A stretch of 22,842 nt of DNA from a virus, in IMG/VR virus record IMGVR_UViG_3300022602_000451, positions 1 to 22,842 of that record, one strand, 5' to 3'. The first letter of the stretch is position 1, and every line of letters begins with the position of its first letter. Below, piece by piece: positions 563 through 11,961 of this stretch. Both the position numbers and the translations under genes were made by a program. The notes below the pieces were generated by a model. That model saw only the letters and a program-made list of their open reading frames with translations. It was not told the DNA's origin and made no database searches.

Positions 563-1621
563 ATGGTAAAGAGCTTTGATATCTCAAAGTTCCGTAAGTC
601 TATCACTAAAAGTATCGATGGCTTAGGAATTGGTTTCAATGATCCAACTGATTGGATTTCAACTGGCAACTATGCCCTAAACTATCTTATCTCTGGGGAC
701 TTCTTTAAGGGGGTTCCCCTAGGTAAGGTTACAGTTTTTGCGGGCGAAAGTGGAGCAGGTAAGAGTTATATTTGTTCCGGCAATATTGTGCGTCATGCAC
801 AAGAACAAGGTATTTTTGTTATCCTTATTGACAGCGAAAATGCTTTAGATGAAGACTGGTTGAAAGCATTGGGTGTCGACACTGGCGAACAAAAACTGCT
901 TAAACTCAACATGGCGATGATTGACGATGTAGCAAAAACTATCCATGAGTTCATGAATGAATATAAAACTATGGATGCTACAGATCGTCCAAAAGTTTTA
1001 TTCGTCATCGATTCATTGGGTATGTTGTTGACTCCTACTGATATTAATCAGTTTGAAGCAGGTGATTTAAAAGGTGACATGGGTCGTAAGCCCAAGGCAT
1101 TGACAGCACTTGTTCGTAACTGTGTAAACATGTTCGGTAGTTATAATGTTGGATTAGTTTGTACTAATCACACATACGCAAGTCAAGACATGTTCGATCC
1201 AGATGATAAAATCTCAGGCGGTCAAGGATTTGTTTATGCGAGTAGTATCGTAGTTGCCATGAAAAAACTCAAACTCAAAGAGGATGAGGATGGTAATAAA
1301 ATTAGTGATGTAGTAGGCATTAGATCAGCCTGTAAAGTCATGAAAACTCGGTATGCTAAACCTTTTGAAAGCGTCCAGGTCAAGATTCCATATTCGACTG
1401 GTATGAGCCCTACAAGTGGGCTGGTTGACATGTTTGAGAAGATGAATGTATTATCTAAAGTAGGAAACAAACTAGCCTACACCAATAAAGAAACTGGTGA
1501 AATAATGGCTGAATTCCGTAAAAATTGGACTGAAGACAAACTAAAGTTGATCATGCAACAATGGGATGAAAGTTCAGTCAATCCAGTAACTACTGTCGAA
1601 GAGGAGGCTGAAGAAGCATAA
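563..1621 (+). CDS. uvsX: UvsX, RecA-like recombinase
   Basis: A 352-aa RecA-fold protein. Walker A is GESGAGKS (residues 61-68), the catalytic-glutamate region is LIDSENALDEDW (about 88-99), and Walker B is VLFVID (145-150). A DNA-binding-loop-like stretch with ISGGQGF lies near 215-225. Length is close to T4 UvsX (about 390 aa). UvsX forms filaments on gp32-cleared ssDNA and drives strand exchange for recombination-dependent replication and repair. The ATG is preceded by an AAGGAGA ribosome site at good spacing. It sits directly after gp32, its partner, and its TAA overlaps the next ATG (TAATG), so the downstream genes are probably translationally coupled. Confidence 0.93.
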   Translation: MVKSFDISKFRKSITKSIDGLGIGFNDPTDWISTGNYALNYLISGDFFKGVPLGKVTVFAGESGAGKSYICSGNIVRHAQEQGIFVILIDSENALDEDWLKALGVDTGEQKLLKLNMAMIDDVAKTIHEFMNEYKTMDATDRPKVLFVIDSLGMLLTPTDINQFEAGDLKGDMGRKPKALTALVRNCVNMFGSYNVGLVCTNHTYASQDMFDPDDKISGGQGFVYASSIVVAMKKLKLKEDEDGNKISDVVGIRSACKVMKTRYAKPFESVQVKIPYSTGMSPTSGLVDMFEKMNVLSKVGNKLAYTNKETGEIMAEFRKNWTEDKLKLIMQQWDESSVNPVTTVEEEAEEA

Positions 1622-1866
1622 TGGATGAAACTTTAATTATGGAAATATGGGATACATTCAAAGAATATATTCCTGAGAAAAACAAAGACATGTCTGCAAC
1701 TCAATACGTCGATTACCTATTAGGTAAAGATGTTGATACTAGCATCCTCGAAGGCCTAGTAGGTTATGATAGTCATCTCGATGATGCTATCAAACAGGCA
1801 TTGGCTGAAGAAGGTTCTATCGAAGACGACACTGAAGAAGACTACGACGAAGAAGAGGACTATTAA
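1621..1866 (+). CDS. small acidic protein between uvsX and the uvsY-like gene
   Basis: 81 aa. The N-terminal two thirds looks helical (MDETLIMEIWDTFKEYIPEKNKDM...), with a YVDYLLGKDV motif. The last 20 residues are almost all Asp/Glu (EEDYDEEEDY at the end). It overlaps the uvsX stop and the next start by one base at both ends, so it is locked into the recombination operon. I do not recognise a named family. The acidic tail is of the kind that mimics DNA or contacts ssDNA-binding proteins, so a role with UvsX/gp32 is a guess from context only. Confidence 0.75.
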   Translation: MDETLIMEIWDTFKEYIPEKNKDMSATQYVDYLLGKDVDTSILEGLVGYDSHLDDAIKQALAEEGSIEDDTEEDYDEEEDY

Positions 1867-2324
1867 TGGCCCATTGGTATGCCAAGGTTAGCCAAGACAT
1901 ATCACACTTACCCAGTTGTATTGACTACTTTTATAAAGAACTAGCTGAAGCAAAAGTTGAAACAAAAATCTCTGGAAACATAGAGAAAGCTAGTTCAATA
2001 TTACCAGGAATCGTAGAACATCGTTTTAATCAGCTTCAAGAAATTGAAGCTGTTTTAGAATATCTCAATATTGAGTTGCGTCGTGTGAGGTCTAAAACCT
2101 TTAAAAAATATTTAGAAAACTATCAACGGGCTCTTAGTTCGAGGGATGTTGAAAAGTATGTCGACGGAGAAGCAGATGTTGTTGATATGGAAAAAATTAT
2201 CAACGAGTTTGCTCTTTTGAGAAATCAATGGCTGGGCATTGTTAAAGGACTTGACATTAAACAATGGCAGCTTTCAAATATTATCAAACTTAGGACCGCG
2301 GGATTAGAAGACGCATCATTATAA
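1866..2324 (+). CDS. uvsY: UvsY-like recombination mediator (probable)
   Basis: 152 aa, mostly alpha-helical. Near residues 70-95 it carries a RSKTFKKYLENYQRALSSRD segment, and it ends in WQLSNIIKLRTAGLEDASL. This resembles the UvsY plan (T4 UvsY 137 aa): a middle helix with a KxxYxxxYxxxL pattern and a C-terminal helix with an aromatic or Q residue before an N/H-I-x-x-(M/L)-R motif. UvsY loads UvsX onto gp32-coated ssDNA. Context supports this: the gene lies between uvsX and uvsW, where T4-like phages keep the mediator. Start and stop overlap both neighbours by one base (TAATG type). No catalytic motif is expected. The call rests on length, pattern and location, not on a clear signature, so an uncharacterised helical protein remains possible. 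Confidence 0.55.
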   Translation: MAHWYAKVSQDISHLPSCIDYFYKELAEAKVETKISGNIEKASSILPGIVEHRFNQLQEIEAVLEYLNIELRRVRSKTFKKYLENYQRALSSRDVEKYVDGEADVVDMEKIINEFALLRNQWLGIVKGLDIKQWQLSNIIKLRTAGLEDASL

Positions 2325-3541
2325 TGTACATAGAAGATATACTTGATCATTTAGTAGGCATTTACGGTAGTCTTGGAAAGGGTCAAGCGACCTTTTTTAG
2401 TTCTAATGACCTCAAACTTTTATCTAGTATATCTTCACAACTAGGTATGGCATATGCCATTTCAGAAAAACAGGCAAATGTAGTAGAAAGGATACTGACC
2501 AATCATATCTCTGACATTTCTTTATTCTTTTCCAAAGATATGGCCTCTCATATTACTAATCCTGTTTATAAAATGGGTAAACGTAAAATTGATAATAGTA
2601 AGACTGTAAAAATTATCACAGATAGTAAAGGTATTAAAAAGATTTCTGTATCTTTTCCTTTCAATGAGGCGTTAGTAAACAAAATAAAACTATTCCGTGG
2701 CGAACATCAAAGTAATGAAATCCTTCCCGGAAAAAGAGGCATTAATTGGGAACCAGTATCAAAGAGTTGGATTTTTAATCTGTATGAACCTTTTATATCT
2801 TGGATAAGAAATACATTTTCTTCAGAAGGATTTATTTTTGATGAACAGTTTTTAGAGTTCTCCAATAAAATCAAAGACATCGAGGAACAGGTTGAAAAAT
2901 ATGTTCCTATGGTAACCTTCAACGAAGGGAAATTTAGTTATGTCAACACACATAAAAATATTCTTCAGCCTTCTAGTACTGATTTGTTAGAAGTATTGTT
3001 TGAATCTAAAAAATACGGAATATCTGTATGGGATGAAAGCATTGCGCTGGCATTAGCAGACGATAGTATTTCTCAACTGACAAACTTATTCTTAAATCAT
3101 CAACTGACTGTATCATATTCCAAATGCATAGAAGTAAACAATGCTACAGTAGACTTTTTTGAGTTCGATGATATACTAAAATATAACGGTGTCGCTATGA
3201 TCATAATACCCAACGGCGATGAATATTTCAATCTTACAAAAAGTCACGAAGAATTGAAAAAAATGGGATTTAAAGATGAAGAAATGTGTGTGTTATTTAG
3301 AACTGACAACTCTACATCATCTAATACAAATGATTTTATCAAGGAACACAATCTTAATAATCCTATATCAGAAAATATTAAAATCTACTTTACCAGTTTA
3401 AAGTTTCCTAAACCATTAATAGCTAAAAAAATCAAAATTGGCACAATCATCAATCTAGGGGCCAGTAACGCCCATCACACTATGAGAACATTTGTAAAAA
3501 ATCATCATAATGTGTTAAACTATAAAATAAAAAAACAATAA
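2324..3541 (+). CDS. uvsW-adjacent protein with HARP-like region, possible degenerate helicase relative
   Basis: 405 aa, function not known. Residues about 30-60 (LLSSISSQLGMAYAISEKQA) resemble the short N-terminal helical module that precedes many phage helicases. Residues about 105-160 (ISVSFPFNEALVNKIKLFRG ... INWEPVSKSWIFNL) resemble the HARP pre-helicase fold (V-x-F-P-[FY]-N ... W-[DE]-P-x-x-[KR]-x-W-x-F). The C-terminal third looks like alternating beta/alpha (GVAMIIIPNGDEYF) but has no Walker A GxGKT and no DExH. It overlaps the uvsY-like stop and ends one base before uvsW starts. A DNA-junction accessory factor for UvsW is an inference. Codon use is strongly AT-rich, like its neighbours. 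Confidence 0.6.
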   Translation: MYIEDILDHLVGIYGSLGKGQATFFSSNDLKLLSSISSQLGMAYAISEKQANVVERILTNHISDISLFFSKDMASHITNPVYKMGKRKIDNSKTVKIITDSKGIKKISVSFPFNEALVNKIKLFRGEHQSNEILPGKRGINWEPVSKSWIFNLYEPFISWIRNTFSSEGFIFDEQFLEFSNKIKDIEEQVEKYVPMVTFNEGKFSYVNTHKNILQPSSTDLLEVLFESKKYGISVWDESIALALADDSISQLTNLFLNHQLTVSYSKCIEVNNATVDFFEFDDILKYNGVAMIIIPNGDEYFNLTKSHEELKKMGFKDEEMCVLFRTDNSTSSNTNDFIKEHNLNNPISENIKIYFTSLKFPKPLIAKKIKIGTIINLGASNAHHTMRTFVKNHHNVLNYKIKKQ

Positions 3542-3542
3542 G

Positions 3543-5006
3543 ATGGCAACCTGTAAAGTTATTTTAAAAGACGAAGTTAATGTCAAGATAGAAAATCTAG
3601 ATCTCGACACGAGGAAGGCATTAGTTAAGAAATTTAAGTACGAAGATCCTACAGCACGCTATCGCCCTGCTTATAAACTAGGTCGATGGGACGGTGGTAT
3701 ACCATTTTTTGGACTGGGCGGAACTACTTACCTTTCGATGATTGAACGTGTACTTGAAGAGTTAGAAAATCGTAACTATTACATTGAGATAGAAGATCTA
3801 CGAACTACGCCCACCCTGGAATTTCCTGAAATTTCTGAGGATTTTTGGGGTGACGCCACATGGCCAGAAGGCCATCGATATGCTGGCGAAAAGATTAGAT
3901 TGCGGGACGATCAAGTTGAAGTTGTAAACATTTTCTTACGCAATCCTCAAAGCATACAAGAGATCGCTACTGGATTTGGTAAGACTATAACCACCGCTAC
4001 GTTGGCGAAAATTTGTGAAAAATACGGTCGTACCGTAACCATTGTTCCTAATAAAAGTCTAGTTGAACAAACTGAAGAAGATTTTATTAATGTTGGATTA
4101 GACGTAGGTGTTTACTATGGTGACAGGAAACATCTTGACAAAACACACACTATCTGCACTTGGCAAAGTCTTAATATTTTAGAAAAAAACTCAAAAAATG
4201 CCTCAGAAAATTCAGAAATTTTAACACTGGCAGAACTGCTTGAAGGAGTTAAATGTGTAATGGTTGATGAAGTGCATCAAGCCAAAGCAGAGGTGTTAAA
4301 AAAGTTAATGACACATAATCTAGCAAATGCTCCTATACGTTGGGGATTAACAGGGACTATTCCAAAACAGGATTTTGAGGTAGAAACTATCAAGGCCAGT
4401 ATTGGAGAAATCGTAAATCAAGTTAAGGCACATACACTGCAGGAAAAAGGTGTATTGAGTAACTGTCATGTTAATATTGTACAAACAAGTGAGTGGAAAG
4501 AATTTGGAAGCTATCCTGAAGAACTAAAATATCTTGTCACGGATGAGAAAAGAATGAGTTATATAACCAACCTCGTACGAGAAATCGCTAAGAATGGAAA
4601 TACGTTAGTGTTGGTTGACAGAATAGAATCAGGACGTATAATAACAAATAGTATAGAGGATAGCGTCTTCATTTCCGGCGAAGTGAAAACAAAAGATCGG
4701 AAAGAAGAATATGATGAAATTAAAACAAGCGATAACAAGATTATTGTGGCGACTTATGGTGTGGCCGCTGTGGGTATTAATATTCCAAGGATTTTTAATC
4801 TGGTTCTTCTTGAACCCGGAAAGAGCTTTGTCCGTGTTATACAAAGCATTGGGCGAGGTATTAGGAAGGCAGAGGATAAGGACTTCGTACAGATCTGGGA
4901 CCTTACAGCCGCATCAAAATACGCCAAGAGACATTTAACAGAACGTAAGAAGTTTTATAAAGAAGCACACTATCCTTATACGATAGAAAAAACAAAATAT
5001 CAATGA
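3543..5006 (+). CDS. uvsW: UvsW, SF2 RNA-DNA and branch-migration helicase
   Basis: 487 aa, the normal UvsW length. The N-terminal substrate-recognition region carries RYRPAYKLGRWDGGIPFF (about 40-57). Helicase motif I is ATGFGKT (142-148), motif II is DEVH (242-245), motif III is LTGTIPK (about 269-275), and motif VI is QSIGRGIR (434-441). The C-terminal tail contains YAKRHLTERKKFYKEA. UvsW unwinds R-loops, which shuts off origin-dependent initiation, and drives fork regression and branch migration for recombination-dependent replication. It closes the uvsX/uvsY/uvsW block. The stop overlaps the end of an antisense endonuclease remnant by 7 nt. Confidence 0.93.
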   Translation: MATCKVILKDEVNVKIENLDLDTRKALVKKFKYEDPTARYRPAYKLGRWDGGIPFFGLGGTTYLSMIERVLEELENRNYYIEIEDLRTTPTLEFPEISEDFWGDATWPEGHRYAGEKIRLRDDQVEVVNIFLRNPQSIQEIATGFGKTITTATLAKICEKYGRTVTIVPNKSLVEQTEEDFINVGLDVGVYYGDRKHLDKTHTICTWQSLNILEKNSKNASENSEILTLAELLEGVKCVMVDEVHQAKAEVLKKLMTHNLANAPIRWGLTGTIPKQDFEVETIKASIGEIVNQVKAHTLQEKGVLSNCHVNIVQTSEWKEFGSYPEELKYLVTDEKRMSYITNLVREIAKNGNTLVLVDRIESGRIITNSIEDSVFISGEVKTKDRKEEYDEIKTSDNKIIVATYGVAAVGINIPRIFNLVLLEPGKSFVRVIQSIGRGIRKAEDKDFVQIWDLTAASKYAKRHLTERKKFYKEAHYPYTIEKTKYQ

Positions 5007-6164: not shown

Positions 6165-6609
6165 TATTAAGCGTGAACTATCGGCAGTAGATCATAAAAA
6201 CTATGATTTTTATGATAAGTTAACGGATGACGAAAAGAAAGCGTTTAGTCCCTACATACTAATGAGATATGTATCAAATGTCCAGGGAGACAGAGATACA
6301 CAGGAATGGTTTTTAGAAATGACTAACGAGTTAGTTAATAAAAATCATTGGACGTTAAGCAAAGATCATAAACCTCTGTTATGGAAGTTATTCGCTGGTA
6401 CGGGTACAGGTGCCAGCGCCTATCATCCCTATCTTGCAGGTGGCAAAAAAGAAAAAGCAGTTAAGATTGAAAAACTGTTAGCAGAAATATATCCAGCTAA
6501 AAAGATGGAAGATATTAAACTATTAGCCAGCCTAATGGATAATAAAGACAAAGAAGAGCTATTTGATAAAATGGGCTTTGATAAGAAACAACGTAAGGAA
6601 TATGAGTGA
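6145..6609 (+). CDS. conserved T4-like protein, possibly clamp-loader small subunit (gp62)-like
   Basis: 154 aa, helical. It starts MATAKLDIKRELSAVDHKNY, has YDKLTDDEKKAFSPYILMRY (about 22-41), a YHPYLAGGKKEK basic stretch (about 92-103) and a charged C-terminus. The 'E-x-x-KAFSPY-x-x-x-R-x-[VL]S' pattern and the short helical build are what marine phage clamp-loader small-subunit-type proteins show. T4 gp62 (187 aa) is the non-ATPase subunit that helps gp44 load the gp45 clamp. gp44 and gp45 are not in this window, so context does not confirm the call. Treat the gp62 link as tentative. Start overlaps the previous gene; stop overlaps the next start (GTGA). Confidence 0.6.
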   Translation: MATAKLDIKRELSAVDHKNYDFYDKLTDDEKKAFSPYILMRYVSNVQGDRDTQEWFLEMTNELVNKNHWTLSKDHKPLLWKLFAGTGTGASAYHPYLAGGKKEKAVKIEKLLAEIYPAKKMEDIKLLASLMDNKDKEELFDKMGFDKKQRKEYE

Positions 6610-7301
6610 TAGCATTGGTTGAGCAACCACACAATTGTGTACATTGCGGCAAGAGTTTTATGCAAGAAAAAACTCTTTATGCTCACATGTGCGAAAATAA
6701 AAGAAGGGCCATGCAAAAAGATGAAAAACGAGTACAGGCCGGTTATATGGCGTTTAATAGATTTTTTAGGCTTACACAAAACTCGAAGAAAGATAAGACT
6801 TATGAAGATTTTTGTAAAAGTCCGTACTATAATGCTTTTGTTAAGTTTGGGAGTTTTATCAATAACGTTAACCCTTTATATCCTGATAAATTTATTGATT
6901 ATGTTATTAAGAGCGGTGTTAAGTTAGATCAATGGGCGAGAGATGAACTGTATGACAGATACCTTTACGAAACCATAAAAATTGAACCAGTAGAAAGTGC
7001 CATACAACGAAGTATACAAAATATGATGGAGTGGGCAGATACAAGTGGAGCTCAGTTTAACCATTATTTTAACTATGTTAATCTTAATAGAGCAGTACAG
7101 GATATACGCAATGGTAAAATAACTCCTTGGCTAATATTAAACTGTAGATCAGGTAAAGACCTGTTAAATAAATTTAACGATGAACAGTTAGACATTATTG
7201 CGCCAGCACTAGATTTACCTTATTGGTTAAAAAAGTTCAAACAAGTGCCTGCTGATGTTGCGCTGGTAAAAGAGATTTGCCAAGGAGCGGGAATAGAATG
7301 A
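6606..7301 (+). CDS. conserved phage protein with N-terminal C2HC zinc-finger motif
   Basis: 231 aa from a GTG start fused to the previous stop (GTGA). The N-terminus carries C-x2-C-x12-H-x-C (Cys11, Cys14, His27, Cys29), with a finger-like K-[ST]-F ... L-x-x-H layout followed by a basic KRR. The rest is helical with several aromatic and charged motifs (NRFFRLT, YEDFCKSPYYNAFVKFGSF, VESAIQRSIQNMMEWAD, ITPWLILNCRSGKDLL). I recognise the type as conserved in T4-like marine phages without assigned function. A nucleic-acid-binding role is inferred from the finger and from its place in a replication-gene strand. It overlaps the next gene by 4 nt. Confidence 0.75.
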   Translation: MIALVEQPHNCVHCGKSFMQEKTLYAHMCENKRRAMQKDEKRVQAGYMAFNRFFRLTQNSKKDKTYEDFCKSPYYNAFVKFGSFINNVNPLYPDKFIDYVIKSGVKLDQWARDELYDRYLYETIKIEPVESAIQRSIQNMMEWADTSGAQFNHYFNYVNLNRAVQDIRNGKITPWLILNCRSGKDLLNKFNDEQLDIIAPALDLPYWLKKFKQVPADVALVKEICQGAGIE

Positions 7302-7699
7302 CTGAACAAGAAAAAGAAATATTAGAGCAGTGGACGGCGAGGCACAATGTAGCGATCCTAGATACTAATAAACGTGTATCAAGGTATATGAGATTACAGC
7401 CTAGATACTTCACAGATGATTTTGATTACAATTATATAGATCAAAATCATATTCAACATCACACCGAAACCCTATATACGGTAACCATACCAGAAAGCAG
7501 TCTACATCGCATCGCTGAATTTGAACAACGTGTGTTCAACCGCATGATAAAAGATGGTAGTTACAATCTGTTTGAAATCATGATGGGACAGAAGGAACGT
7601 GAAAAATATCTCGCTGAAAAATATCCAGCAGTTAAGAAAGCACAAGAACAATATAGTATGGTATTGAAACTAGCAGAAAGCGGAGAGCTCAGTGCCTGA
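7298..7699 (+). CDS. unknown phage protein
   Basis: 133 aa from ATG 7298, chosen because it makes the usual ATGA overlap and has GGAG upstream; a GTG/ATG further left would overlap the zinc-finger gene more. Begins MTEQEKEILEQWTARHNVAI, with YFTDDFDYNYIDQNHIQHHT in the middle and a helical, charged C-terminus (EREKYLAEKYPAVKKAQEQY). The family is not recognised. It overlaps the following DnaE-like gene by 8 nt (GTGCCTGA), so the pair is likely translated together. Confidence 0.65.
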   Translation: MTEQEKEILEQWTARHNVAILDTNKRVSRYMRLQPRYFTDDFDYNYIDQNHIQHHTETLYTVTIPESSLHRIAEFEQRVFNRMIKDGSYNLFEIMMGQKEREKYLAEKYPAVKKAQEQYSMVLKLAESGELSA

Positions 7700-8270
7700 T
7701 ATTGATTTAGATTTTCCAGATAGGAACAAGGTACTTGATATTGTTAGGCACGTCCCTGCTATTTTAACAGATGGAAAGAAACACAATACAGGAGTCTATT
7801 GTCAAGAGATTCCCGTAAATCCCTTGACAGGGTTTGCCACTATAGATTATGCCACTGCGGAAGAAAGAGGATATTTTAAGATTGATTTCCTAAATGTCAG
7901 CGCCTACGAAGGTGTTAAAAATGAAGAACATATTAACAAGCTGTTGAGTATTGAGCCCCTGTGGGAGTTGATGTATGAGAAAGAAGTATGCGACCAACTG
8001 TTCCATATTAATGGTTATCACAATCTAGTGGCAAGACTTAAACCTAATACTATTTTAGAGTTGGCAACGGTACTGGCACTCATAAGACCGGGCAAACGTC
8101 ACTTGGTAGATCAGTGTGCCCGTGATGGGTTTGATAGTGTTCAGGATGAAGTTTGGTCCAAAACTGACGAAGGGTATAGTTTTAAAAAGAGTCATGCTGT
8201 GGGCTATGCCCACGTGATAATTATGCAGTTAAATTTAATCTGCGAGCGTGTCAGTTACGGGATTTCTTAG
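7692..8270 (+). CDS. miniature DnaE-like protein (C-family polymerase palm/fingers motifs)
   Basis: 192 aa from a GTG. It begins PDIDLDFPDR (residues 2-11), the catalytic palm motif of bacterial Pol III alpha (PD-x-D-x-DF). Further DnaE-like blocks follow in the same order: HNTGVY (31-36, like HAAGV), GYFKIDFLNV (60-69, like the K-[FM]-DFLGL third catalytic Asp, here Asp65), ALIRPGKRHL (129-138, like AL-x-RPG) and FKKSHAVGYAHV (164-175, like FNKSHAAAYA). Full DnaE is over 1000 aa, so the PHP, OB and tau-binding parts are missing. All three carboxylates appear kept (Asp5, Asp7, Asp65). Polymerase activity is unproven. The 3' end overlaps the convergent gene by 20 bp. Confidence 0.75.
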   Translation: MPDIDLDFPDRNKVLDIVRHVPAILTDGKKHNTGVYCQEIPVNPLTGFATIDYATAEERGYFKIDFLNVSAYEGVKNEEHINKLLSIEPLWELMYEKEVCDQLFHINGYHNLVARLKPNTILELATVLALIRPGKRHLVDQCARDGFDSVQDEVWSKTDEGYSFKKSHAVGYAHVIIMQLNLICERVSYGIS

Positions 8271-8634
8271 GTGATCTTACCAGTTGTATGGATCGACGTT
8301 TAATTCTTTTTTCTGCTATTTCGCCTAGATTTACTGTGGGGCCAAATACAACTTCTATATCTTTGCTATTAAATGTTTTGATGTAGGGCCTATAATAGAT
8401 CATATTTTCTTTAAGAAATATATTGATAGGAATTTTGCGATTACTTTCCCACCACCAAGTTTCTCCCAGTTCTAAAAACGCCTGTTTTTCTTCATCAGAT
8501 TTCATGCACTCCAAATCATAGATGCTGGTAACAAATTCATCATAGTTGATAATAATACCAACGTATTCTATCTCATTTGATTTTACACAGGTAATAAAAG
8601 GAAGTTTTTCTTGGATCGTGTTCTTAATCGACAT
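8251..8634 (-). CDS. conserved T4-like phage protein of unknown function
   Basis: 127 aa, small alpha/beta. Seen: KSNEIEYVGIIINYDEFVTS, an aromatic ELGETWWWESNRKIPINIFL block (about 56-75), and a basic end (KRIKRRSIQLVRSPKK). The 'ELGE-x-WWWESNR-x-IPINIFLK' and 'KR-x-KRRSIQLVR' strings are typical of a conserved hypothetical protein of marine T4-like phages. No enzyme motif is evident; the basic tail could touch nucleic acid. A perfect late promoter lies 38 nt upstream inside the divergent gene, so it is likely expressed late. It converges on and overlaps the DnaE-like gene. Confidence 0.75.
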   Translation of the reverse strand: MSIKNTIQEKLPFITCVKSNEIEYVGIIINYDEFVTSIYDLECMKSDEEKQAFLELGETWWWESNRKIPINIFLKENMIYYRPYIKTFNSKDIEVVFGPTVNLGEIAEKRIKRRSIQLVRSPKKSRN

Positions 8635-8653: not shown

Positions 8654-9508
8654 ATGCTAAAATGCCCAATCTATTTATACCCCAATTCAGTCGACGTAAT
8701 ATTGGATTTGGATCAGAACACAAGGATTAACAACGTTATGTACCAACGCGAACTACAGATCCAAAAGGGTCTGAAAAACAAGATACAGTTCCAATTTAAG
8801 AACAGTGATCAGAAGCCTATCACTATTACCAGTGGTACATATACATTCAGTATGTTCGATGCTATCAATCAAAGACAGCTACTTTCTAAGACGTTGACAG
8901 TTTTAGACACAGGAACTATTACAACCAAAGGTTTGGCATTATTAGAGATTAATGATGGCGATACTGTGGATTTAGACGATGGAAAATATCAGTTCACTGT
9001 AGCGGCTCTAAATGATGATGGTAACTATGAGCCTACGTATTCTAACACCTACTACGGTATCAGCGGAACGCTAGAACTGCGCAGTGATAGTTTTCCTACG
9101 CTACAACCTAGTTATGAAATATTTGAGTTTCAACCTCAATACGATTATACTCAGAGCCTTTATGTTTACTACAGCGGAAACATACCTAGCCATCCAGAGT
9201 TTGCTAGTCCTATAGGATTACATACAGTATCATATCACATGACAGGATTCCGCGGACAGGTTTGGTTAGAAGGCACCCAAGAAAACGATCCCGGATACTT
9301 TGGACATTTTGTAGAAATACAAGGTTCACGTCAAACATATGGCTCAGGACTGTTAGGATTTACAGGCAATGATTATGTTAACTTTTATGGAGTTTGGAGT
9401 TATATCAGAGTCAAATATCAACCAACTGCCAATCCAGTAAACATGCAGAACGACAACTCGTCAATCCCCTATCGCGGTACATTTGACAAAGCTATCTATA
9501 GAAGTTAA
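8654..9508 (+). CDS. probable virion structural protein (baseplate/tail-type, beta-rich)
   Basis: 284 aa, dominated by beta-type segments. The first half (RELQIQKGLKNKIQFQFKNS ... ITSGTYTFSMFDAINQRQLL ... DGKYQFTVAALNDDGNYEP) reads like an Ig/beta-sandwich domain of the kind found in phage baseplate upper or fibre-attachment proteins. The second half is Tyr/Gly-rich (VYYSGNIPSHPEF, SGLLGFTGNDYVNFYGVW). No signal peptide or membrane segment. The late promoter right at the start fits a structural role. The exact location in the virion is not known. Confidence 0.6.
   Translation: MLKCPIYLYPNSVDVILDLDQNTRINNVMYQRELQIQKGLKNKIQFQFKNSDQKPITITSGTYTFSMFDAINQRQLLSKTLTVLDTGTITTKGLALLEINDGDTVDLDDGKYQFTVAALNDDGNYEPTYSNTYYGISGTLELRSDSFPTLQPSYEIFEFQPQYDYTQSLYVYYSGNIPSHPEFASPIGLHTVSYHMTGFRGQVWLEGTQENDPGYFGHFVEIQGSRQTYGSGLLGFTGNDYVNFYGVWSYIRVKYQPTANPVNMQNDNSSIPYRGTFDKAIYRS
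8672..8679 (-). promoter_or_regulatory. late promoter TATAAATA for the minus gene 8251-8634
   Basis: Exact late core on the minus strand, inside the first codons of the divergent structural gene and 37 nt before the minus ATG. This gives a normal-length leader, unlike most other late starts here. Confidence 0.6.
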
Positions 9509-9517
9509 ACTGTATGC

Positions 9518-10516
9518 ATGAGTCTCATGCTAACGGCCCTACAGGCTGTATTACCTCCAAATAGAAAACAAACACCAAGTGGTTGGATAAGTTTTGACGC
9601 ACCCTGTTGTCATCATAGGGGTGAAACTCAAGACGATCGTAAACGTGGTGGAGTTATGATCACAGGAGATGCTTTTACCTTCCATTGCTTTAACTGCAAC
9701 TTCAAAGCTGGATGGAGTCCTGGTAAACCAATGAGTGCCAATACACGTAAATTGTTTAGTTGGATGGGTATTCCAGAAACAGAAATCACCAGACTGGCGA
9801 TGGAGGCGTTAAAAGAACATGACGCCATTCCCTCTCAAAAGAAAGCATTTAGTTTTGAACTAGATACAGTCGAACTACCGGAAGATACAGCTACTATTGT
9901 AGATTGGTCTAGCACCACATACCCACCGGACTTTGCAGAAGATTTAGGCAAGGCGGCAGAATATATTATCAACAGAGGAATGGACATCTATTGGTATGAT
10001 TGGATGTGGTCACCTGCGGCAGGATATAAGGATCGAGTGATCATTCCGTTTTATCAAGACGATCGAGTGGTAGGATATACAGCACGTAAGATTACAGAGG
10101 GTAAGCCAAAATATCTAGCACATGGACAACCTGGATATGTGTTCAACTTAACTAGACAACCTAGGGAACGAAAGTATACAATCGTAGTAGAAGGACACTT
10201 TGATGCTATTGCCATTGACGGAGTCTGCATTGGTCACAATGATCCAAATGAAACGCAGATAGCACGTATCAACGCATTAGCCAAAGAAATTATTGTAGTG
10301 CCTGATAGAGATCGTCCAGGTGCTAAAATGTTAAAAGCGGCTATCGATAACGGATGGAGCGCCAGCTTGCCACCTTGGGGTGATGATATTAAAGACGTAG
10401 CTGACGCAGTCAGGCGTTATGGAAGATTATATGTATTGTCCACGATTTTACACTATAGAACCGACAATCAACTAAAAATACAAGTAATGAAAAAGAAACT
10501 AGAAGGACTTAAATGA
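9518..10516 (+). CDS. 61: DNA primase gp61
   Basis: 332 aa, same size as T4 gp61 (342). N-terminal zinc site: CCHH (30-33) paired with C-x2-C (57, 60). TOPRIM fold: EGHFDA (225-230) with the acidic DRDRPG (263-268, PDRDRPG) metal motif. gp61 makes pentaribonucleotide primers and forms the primosome with gp41 helicase, whose gene starts in its stop codon (ATGA). The ATG at 9518 has no clear ribosome site; ATG 9527 (MLTALQAV) is an alternative three codons in. Confidence 0.9.
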   Translation: MSLMLTALQAVLPPNRKQTPSGWISFDAPCCHHRGETQDDRKRGGVMITGDAFTFHCFNCNFKAGWSPGKPMSANTRKLFSWMGIPETEITRLAMEALKEHDAIPSQKKAFSFELDTVELPEDTATIVDWSSTTYPPDFAEDLGKAAEYIINRGMDIYWYDWMWSPAAGYKDRVIIPFYQDDRVVGYTARKITEGKPKYLAHGQPGYVFNLTRQPRERKYTIVVEGHFDAIAIDGVCIGHNDPNETQIARINALAKEIIVVPDRDRPGAKMLKAAIDNGWSASLPPWGDDIKDVADAVRRYGRLYVLSTILHYRTDNQLKIQVMKKKLEGLK

Positions 10517-11961
10517 TAAAGCAAGACAAAGAAAAACCAAACTATGATTATGAAATACAGAAGCTATATTTAGAAATGTTTCTCAGCGACGCTGAAACAT
10601 TCAGTCGTTGTCAAAGCATTTTTGATCCAGAGAATTTTGACCAAAGACTCCGTGAGACAGCAGAGTTTGTTACCCGCTACGTAGACGAATATAAAATCAT
10701 TCCAGACGTTAGTATTGTTAATGCGGCTTGTAAAAGAGAACTACAGATAGTCGAGTTACCGCAACAGAACTATGAATGGCTCAAGGACGAGTTTGAGCAA
10801 TTTTCCAGGCATAAAGCACTAGAACGTGCCATTATGAAAAGTTTTGATTTACTGGAAAACGGTGAGTATGGGCCAGTTGAAAAACTGGTCAAAGATGCTA
10901 TTCAGGTCAGTCTAACTAAAGATATGGGCACTGATTACTTTGAAGACCCTAAAGCGAGATTGACAGCACTCAAGGACGGAAATGGTCAAATTTCCACTGG
11001 TTGGCCCAGCATTGACAAGAAATTGTATGGTGGCTTTAATCGAGGTGAGTTGAACATTTTCTGTGCTGGATCAGGCGGTGGTAAAAGTTTATTCTTAGCT
11101 AACATGGGCGTAAACTGGGCACTACAGGGATTAAATGTGCTGTATCTAACTTTTGAGTTGAGCGAGAAATTAGTGGCGATGAGGCTAGATTCTATGGTCA
11201 CAGGTATCACAACACGTGACATATTCAAAAGCATAGATGACGTGGAATTAAAGGTTAAAATGGTCGGAAAAGCCTCGGGTAGTATACAGATCAAGTATAT
11301 GCCCTCAGGAAAAAATTGTAACGATATTCGGTCATATTTGAAGGAATATGAGGTCAAAAAAGGCCTAAAACCTGACGTAATTTTAATAGATTACCTCGAT
11401 TTGATGATGCCACTAAATGTGAAGGTATCGCCCAGTGATCTGTTTGTTAAAGACAAATATGTGTCAGAAGAGATAAGAAACTTGGCTATGGAAACACAAT
11501 GTATCACAGTTACAGCGTCGCAGTTAAATCGTGCGGCAGTTGAAGAAATCGAGTTTGATCACAGTCATATCAGTGGCGGATTGAGTAAGATTATGACAGC
11601 AGATAATGTGATAGGTATCTTTACAAGCCGTGCTATGCGTGAACGTGGTCGCTATCAGATACAGTTTATGAAGACTAGATCAAGCAGTGGTGTAGGACAA
11701 AAAGTAGATCTAGAGTTTAATGTAGAAACACTACGTATCAGCGATCTAGGAGAAGATGGGGATCAATCAAATCCACAACAGAGTAGCAGACCCGGTAACA
11801 GCGTGTACGCAGGACTCAAGCGTAGCAGTACAGTTACACCAGACCCAGAAACAGGTGAGATAGATCCCACAGTGGGCGTCAACGTACCAAAGATTAAAGC
11901 TGAAGTTGGGGGTGCGGCCATCCGCAAAATGCTGGCATCACTGAACAGTGAGCGTGATTAG
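10513..11961 (+). CDS. 41: replicative DNA helicase gp41 (DnaB-like)
   Basis: 482 aa; T4 gp41 is 475. The N-terminal domain (about 1-140) is helical. The RecA-like motor has Walker A GSGGGKS (186-192), a TFELSE segment (213-218), Walker B ILIDYLD (290-296) and SQLNRAA with a later ISGGLSKIMTADNVIG (motif H4-like). gp41 is the hexameric 5'-3' fork helicase. The tail after about residue 420 is low complexity (DGDQSNPQQSSRPGNS). Translation is coupled to the primase. The stop shares 4 bp with the convergent YqgE-like gene. Confidence 0.93.
   Translation: MIKQDKEKPNYDYEIQKLYLEMFLSDAETFSRCQSIFDPENFDQRLRETAEFVTRYVDEYKIIPDVSIVNAACKRELQIVELPQQNYEWLKDEFEQFSRHKALERAIMKSFDLLENGEYGPVEKLVKDAIQVSLTKDMGTDYFEDPKARLTALKDGNGQISTGWPSIDKKLYGGFNRGELNIFCAGSGGGKSLFLANMGVNWALQGLNVLYLTFELSEKLVAMRLDSMVTGITTRDIFKSIDDVELKVKMVGKASGSIQIKYMPSGKNCNDIRSYLKEYEVKKGLKPDVILIDYLDLMMPLNVKVSPSDLFVKDKYVSEEIRNLAMETQCITVTASQLNRAAVEEIEFDHSHISGGLSKIMTADNVIGIFTSRAMRERGRYQIQFMKTRSSSGVGQKVDLEFNVETLRISDLGEDGDQSNPQQSSRPGNSVYAGLKRSSTVTPDPETGEIDPTVGVNVPKIKAEVGGAAIRKMLASLNSERD

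Follow-up and report, generated by a model that had tools for sequence, protein, structure and literature searches.

The window (the whole stretch of DNA that was analyzed, 22,842 nucleotides of a viral record from IMG/VR) contains a series of T4-like replication and recombination genes, and among these lies a small gene that we refer to as the C-half gene (Table 1). An earlier note, made from the letters alone, had placed this gene inside a T4-like replication cluster, which is supported by its neighbors, and had described a reading frame with the motifs PDIDLDF, KIDFLN, ALIRPG and FKKSHAVGYA in that order, all of which we confirmed. Only six codons separate the GTG start from the preceding in-frame stop, and in several relatives a stop codon immediately precedes the start; because of these nearby stops, we take the protein to begin truly at the DxDxD strand, with no long upstream extension. 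Between uvsY and uvsW the window encodes a 405-aa protein (positions 2324-3541) without family matches. In phage PBECO4, a DnaQ-like exonuclease gene occupies the position between uvsY and uvsW.

Table 1. Features of the window around the C-half gene, with the equivalent residues of E. coli DnaE in brackets.
Feature	Position	Strand	Remarks
UvsX recombinase	563-1621	+	context
UvsY-like recombination mediator	1866-2324	+	context
UvsW-like helicase	3543-5006	+	context
Conserved upstream gene, phrog_11058, possible zinc finger	6606-7301	+	context
GGAGAG, likely ribosome-binding site of the C-half gene	7682-7687	+	sequence
C-half gene	7692-8270	+	192 aa, GTG start; palm metal-binding part and reduced fingers
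Codons of Asp3 and Asp5 (catalytic; D401, D403) and Asp7 (D405)	7698-7712	+	invariant in 60/60 homologues; alignment
Codon of His31 (H511)	7782-7784	+	invariant
Codons of Lys63 (K553), Ile64 and Asp65 (D555, third catalytic Asp)	7878-7886	+	Lys63 and Asp65 invariant
Codons of Arg132-Pro133-Gly134-Lys135 (R639-P640-G-)	8085-8096	+	R132, P133 and K135 invariant
FKKSHAVGY fingers helix: Lys165, His168 (H760, steric gate), Tyr172 (Y764)	8184-8207	+	H168 and Y172 invariant
Convergent gene of unknown function, phrog_11637	8251-8634	-	conserved neighbor
TATAAATA, T4-type late promoter box of the convergent gene	8672-8679	-	
DNA primase	9518-10516	+	context
DnaB-like (gp41-type) replicative helicase	10513-11961	+	context

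The 3' end of a convergent gene, relatives of which occur in 58 phage records, overlaps the C-half gene by 20 bp. The box TATAAATA was found 32-60 bp upstream of this convergent gene in 84 of the 91 scored loci, against a background of 1.2% of random stretches from the same loci, and upstream of the C-half gene in 1 of 82. Judging from this promoter box, the convergent gene probably belongs to the late genes; it faces the replication operon, and late transcripts may run antisense into that operon.

The C-half is homologous to the palm and some of the fingers of Pol III alpha

The family phrog_11778, labeled as DNA polymerase, matched residues 3-186 of the window C-half with an E-value of 1.1e-59, and relatives were present in 63 phage records and at least 80 IMG/VR loci. 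Alignment of a profile of 60 C-half relatives with a DnaE alignment (hhalign) gave a probability of 97.3% and an E-value of 2e-11, and when the C-half profile was compared with the sequences of the PDB, Pol III alpha chains ranked first (5lew, E-value 9e-5). The Pfam model DNA_pol3_finger matched below the Pfam cut-off and TIGR00594 matched weakly. The PolC model TIGR01405 gave no match to the C-half, whereas the DnaE models did.

Structure models were built from alignments in which the rows from named phage records had been left out. The AlphaFold2 model of the C-half (mean pLDDT 84, pTM 0.71) places residues 3-7 on one strand and residues 63-67 on another. Foldseek ranked Pol III alpha structures in the first 13 places for this model (probability 0.60-1.00, query TM 0.34-0.54), beyond which the scores collapse. 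The Foldseek E-values were modest, at 0.002 for the C-half and 0.05 for the partner protein described below, which in the case of the C-half results from comparing a small part with very long chains. Profile and fold thus agree on a homology of the C-half with the palm of bacterial Pol III alpha and part of its fingers, as the earlier note had suggested; the motifs are not a product of chance, and the contrary outcome, a profile search without a DnaE match, did not occur.

In the alignment to DnaE, the C-half lacks everything before the DxD strand, approximately 90 residues of the palm and all later domains, and the fingers section with YQEQ...LRRAMGKK is deleted. Its length and alignment indicate that PHP, thumb, clamp-binding and OB domains as well as complete fingers are not part of this chain, and the GS nucleotide-binding motif is carried by a separate protein. 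With 99% identity to one IMG/VR contig and 35-89% to the other aligned sequences, the window C-half is a new sequence of a known split family; nothing structural distinguishes it.

The N-half partner and the split point

A search of the relatives with PF07733 identified a second small ORF elsewhere in the genome. This protein of approximately 172 aa (phrog_11127), referred to here as the N-half, carries the NTP-binding part and ends in WGVGRGSSVASYxLYLxGVHKIDSIKYxLDIxEFLK, corresponding to the GS turn of DnaE and the helices up to FERFLN. After FERFLN, DnaE runs on with PERVSMPDFDVDF, and the window C-half opens with MPDIDLDF. Comparison of these two ends with DnaE places the cut in the loop that connects the GS helices to the DxD strand. 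This boundary is kept within a few residues across 66 distinct C-halves and 67 distinct N-halves, the N-halves ending 0 to approximately 8 residues past EFLK and the C-halves starting at or shortly before the DxD strand. The N-half profile matches residues 321-392 of E. coli DnaE, directly before the DxD strand (hhalign against DnaE: 96.8%, E-value 2e-10), and the 12 best Foldseek matches of the N-half model (pLDDT 86, pTM 0.59) are Pol III alpha.

No fusion or close pairing of the halves was found among 84 + 84 loci, none of which contained both genes. In the loci that were read (L087:1207-2366 and relatives), the N-half gene is followed downstream by a small conserved gene, phrog_14844, and a gene for a GroES-like co-chaperonin.

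Active-site residues are conserved across both halves

The three aspartates of the C-half previously proposed to be catalytic were Asp5, Asp7 and Asp65. A set of three is indeed present, but the numbering has to be corrected: alignment to E. coli DnaE identifies Asp3 and Asp5 as the catalytic pair, completed by Asp65, and Asp7 as the equivalent of D405. Catalytic roles of D401, D403 and D555 have been described for DnaE (PMC8485763; PMC3919608), and D405 is a further aspartate that is conserved in the DnaE groups and replaced by asparagine in PolC (PMC3919608), as it also is in the PolC sequences compared here. His168 aligns with H760, for which a role as steric gate was proposed from structural modeling (PMC8485763).

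In the alignment of 60 homologues, whose C-halves share 35-89% identity with that of the window, 17 columns do not vary, among them D3, D5, D7, H31, K63, D65, R132, K135, H168, and Y172; of these, Lys135 is specific to the phage family. The aspartates therefore do not vary freely, the outcome that would have spoken against the earlier proposal. G-R-G-S-S is invariant in the N-half alignment, and the equivalents of D401, D403, D405, H511, K553, D555, R639, H760, and Y764 are kept together with GRGS in 17 of 17 paired genomes. Residues R362, G363, S364, D401, D403, H511, K553, D555, H760, and Y764 do not vary among the compared DnaE and PolC sequences, and the phage pairs retain every one of them. 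At the position of R390, an acidic residue is found instead across the 17 paired genomes. Such a conservation pattern is what one would expect of an enzyme with binding sites for two metals and a dNTP, and not of a decoy.

Co-occurrence, distribution and phylogeny

In each of the 20 large phage genomes examined, 14 from named phages and six from IMG/VR (221-372 kb), there is a single N-half, a single C-half and a family B polymerase (scored above the Pfam cut-off). The coexistence with a family B polymerase assumed in the earlier note thus holds in the relatives, and its description of the C-half as a lone miniature does not, as the NTP-binding half is a separate gene in every large genome examined. 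The two half genes lie closest together in phage CM1 (14 kb) and farthest apart in Phosso (224 kb). By BLAST alone, the N-half was detected in 58 of the 60 listed phage records that have a C-half; the exceptions are XacN1, where it was recovered by profile, and a 109-kb record. The record of the window, at 22.8 kb, does not extend to the partner gene or a family B polymerase, and from its relatives we infer that the genome of the window phage itself contains an N-half gene.

A DnaQ-like exonuclease was considered as an obligate third partner and rejected, being above the cut-off in 12 of the 14 named phages and none of the six IMG/VR genomes. The two halves co-vary (r 0.74 over 136 pairs); shared ancestry by itself would produce this, and we do not count it as evidence.

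C-half genes free of internal stops occur both in phages that infect alpha- and gammaproteobacteria and in many metagenomes. In cellular genomes, the sole strong match is on a 3.7-kb contig in an archaeal metagenome-assembled genome, and the remainder are ordinary DnaE. This contig (L217), assigned to the bin of a Natrialbaceae archaeon and coding for a C-half with 51% identity, is most likely misbinned phage DNA.

In a phylogenetic tree (266 columns, 12 DnaE/PolC sequences), the split sequences form one clade with a support of 100 on a long branch (1.71). This clade is placed beside phage DnaE with a support of only 27-59, too low for the tree to settle its origin. The tree speaks neither for nor against the ancestral (pre-LUCA) reading of the split core (PMC7824862).

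Proposed function

We consider it likely that the C-half is the metal-binding C-terminal half of a two-protein minimal DnaE-type Pol III alpha core, an auxiliary polymerase assembled in trans. The N-half and the C-half would bind each other and rebuild one palm active site, in which the GRGSS turn of the N-half would hold the triphosphate and the C-half would provide the metals and the sugar gate. The pair may then add dNTPs to primer ends as an auxiliary DNA polymerase, a step of which we are less certain than of the association. Processive synthesis is unlikely, since the YQEQ/LRRAMGKK segment of the fingers, R390, and the thumb, clamp-binding and OB domains are missing or changed. The location of the C-half gene among the genes for UvsX, UvsY, UvsW, primase and helicase leads us to prefer gap filling or repair in recombination-dependent replication as its role; the auxiliary work could also include recombination-linked synthesis beside UvsX/Y/W, with bulk replication left to the family B enzyme.

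In its full form, this proposal describes a phage-only heteromeric DNA-synthesizing enzyme of fewer than 370 residues in total, with a single active site made from two distant genes, operating without YQEQ/LRRAMGKK, thumb or clamp-binding domain beside a family B replicase; we give this even chances. If the halves do rebuild an active site, it would be, to our knowledge, the smallest C-family polymerase core. Its natural cut would lie within the palm, with the nucleotide-binding turn on one side and the metal ligands on the other, and such a core would help to explain why T4-like giant phages keep two unrelated polymerases. As both proteins are small and conserved throughout the clade, the question lends itself to direct testing.

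With the fingers segment missing, an enzyme that synthesizes short tracts or adds to ends is also conceivable. The halves could form a non-templated nucleotidyltransferase that extends, for example, DNA ends or another acceptor by one or a few nucleotides: the Pol beta-type nucleotidyltransferase palm fold, its metal ligands and the GS motif are kept, and much of the fingers and all of the outer domains that handle the template are gone. However, the fingers helix with the equivalents of H760 and Tyr764 is invariant, residues that in DnaE act on the dNTP opposite the template (PMC8485763), and we regard this alternative as unlikely.

A C-half working on its own as a nuclease or primer handler, with a functionally unrelated N-half, would fit the separation of the two genes and their different neighborhoods, but each half lacks essential parts of one catalytic domain, the halves abut exactly, and single copies of both are found in all 20 large genomes. 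In addition, we know of no nuclease activity of the DnaE palm. A lone nuclease, which the earlier note had listed among the options, is therefore not favored, and we judge the C-half acting alone to be improbable.

Many phages inhibit host replication, and the resemblance of the C-half to host DnaE could point to a decoy or poison of the host Pol III holoenzyme, which would mimic part of alpha and bind a host replisome subunit. Against this, the metal ligands, GS motif and steric-gate histidine are strictly conserved, the C-terminal domains that provide the clamp- and tau-binding surfaces of alpha are absent, and the partner half is always present. The identity of the phage halves to DnaE is approximately 18-30% whatever the host, host DnaE being no closer than non-host DnaE (for PBECO4, 19.9% to E. 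coli DnaE and 25.4% to a Bacillales DnaE). Both a decoy, which we hold to be very improbable, and the repurposed fold also raised in the earlier note are thus unlikely. A decaying remnant of full-length DnaE, suggested by the large deletions, hardly deserves consideration given intact genes across alpha- and gammaproteobacterial phages and metagenomes, one copy of each half per large genome and an invariant active site.

Relation to other split and phage-encoded polymerases

In cyanobacteria, DnaE is also encoded by two distant genes, the products of which carry split-intein parts and are ligated, with the split site in the fingers. The phage proteins differ in being cut inside the palm, and no intein-sized extension was found at the split ends of the phage N- or C-halves.

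A split minimal Pol III alpha in group 2.2 jumbo phages was described computationally by Iyer et al. (2021; PMC7824862), and the pieces had been noted earlier in phage papers as truncated alpha subunit or Pol III subunits (PMC5259590; PMC6102473). The finding itself is therefore already published as a prediction, and the view that a C-family core beside these replication genes is unexplained was out of date. Types of group 2.2 jumbo phage with the split core are RaK2, PBECO4, PA5oct, and Atu_ph07. The system analyzed here shares with the published one the two-protein split, the absence of the other DnaE domains and, in the relatives, the accompanying family B polymerase. Beyond that description, our analysis locates the split point exactly and shows it to be constant, corrects the Asp numbering, finds the steric gate retained and a fingers segment lost, and documents the co-occurrence in 20/20 genomes. 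No experimental study of a split Pol III alpha was found in the literature searched.

Compared with bacterial DnaE, the palm metal ligands, K553, the fingers helix with H760, and D405 are alike, and the GS motif sits in the partner; the phage pair consists of two chains of 192 and approximately 172 aa, whereas DnaE is a single chain of approximately 1100-1200 aa. Firmicutes PolC belongs to the same C family and has the metal ligands in common, but differs in the asparagine at the position of the invariant Asp7, and its identity to the phage halves is lower (15-21%).

Full-length phage DnaE proteins, such as those of Streptomyces phage Circinus and Escherichia phage kaset, are likewise phage-encoded C-family polymerases, but form single ORFs of approximately 970-1270 aa that are not split at the palm. 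Bacteroides phage DAC22, kaset, NoodleTree, Circinus, and BcoS136 were rejected as examples of the split, as each has a single long DnaE ORF. Thomasclavelia phage TR-TP2 was also rejected, as its first ORF extends approximately 160 residues beyond the GS region. In this phage (L300:2026-6195), an ORF for a DnaE-type polymerase, an HNH endonuclease gene and a second polymerase ORF lie in a row, likely representing an endonuclease-interrupted DnaE that is cut elsewhere.
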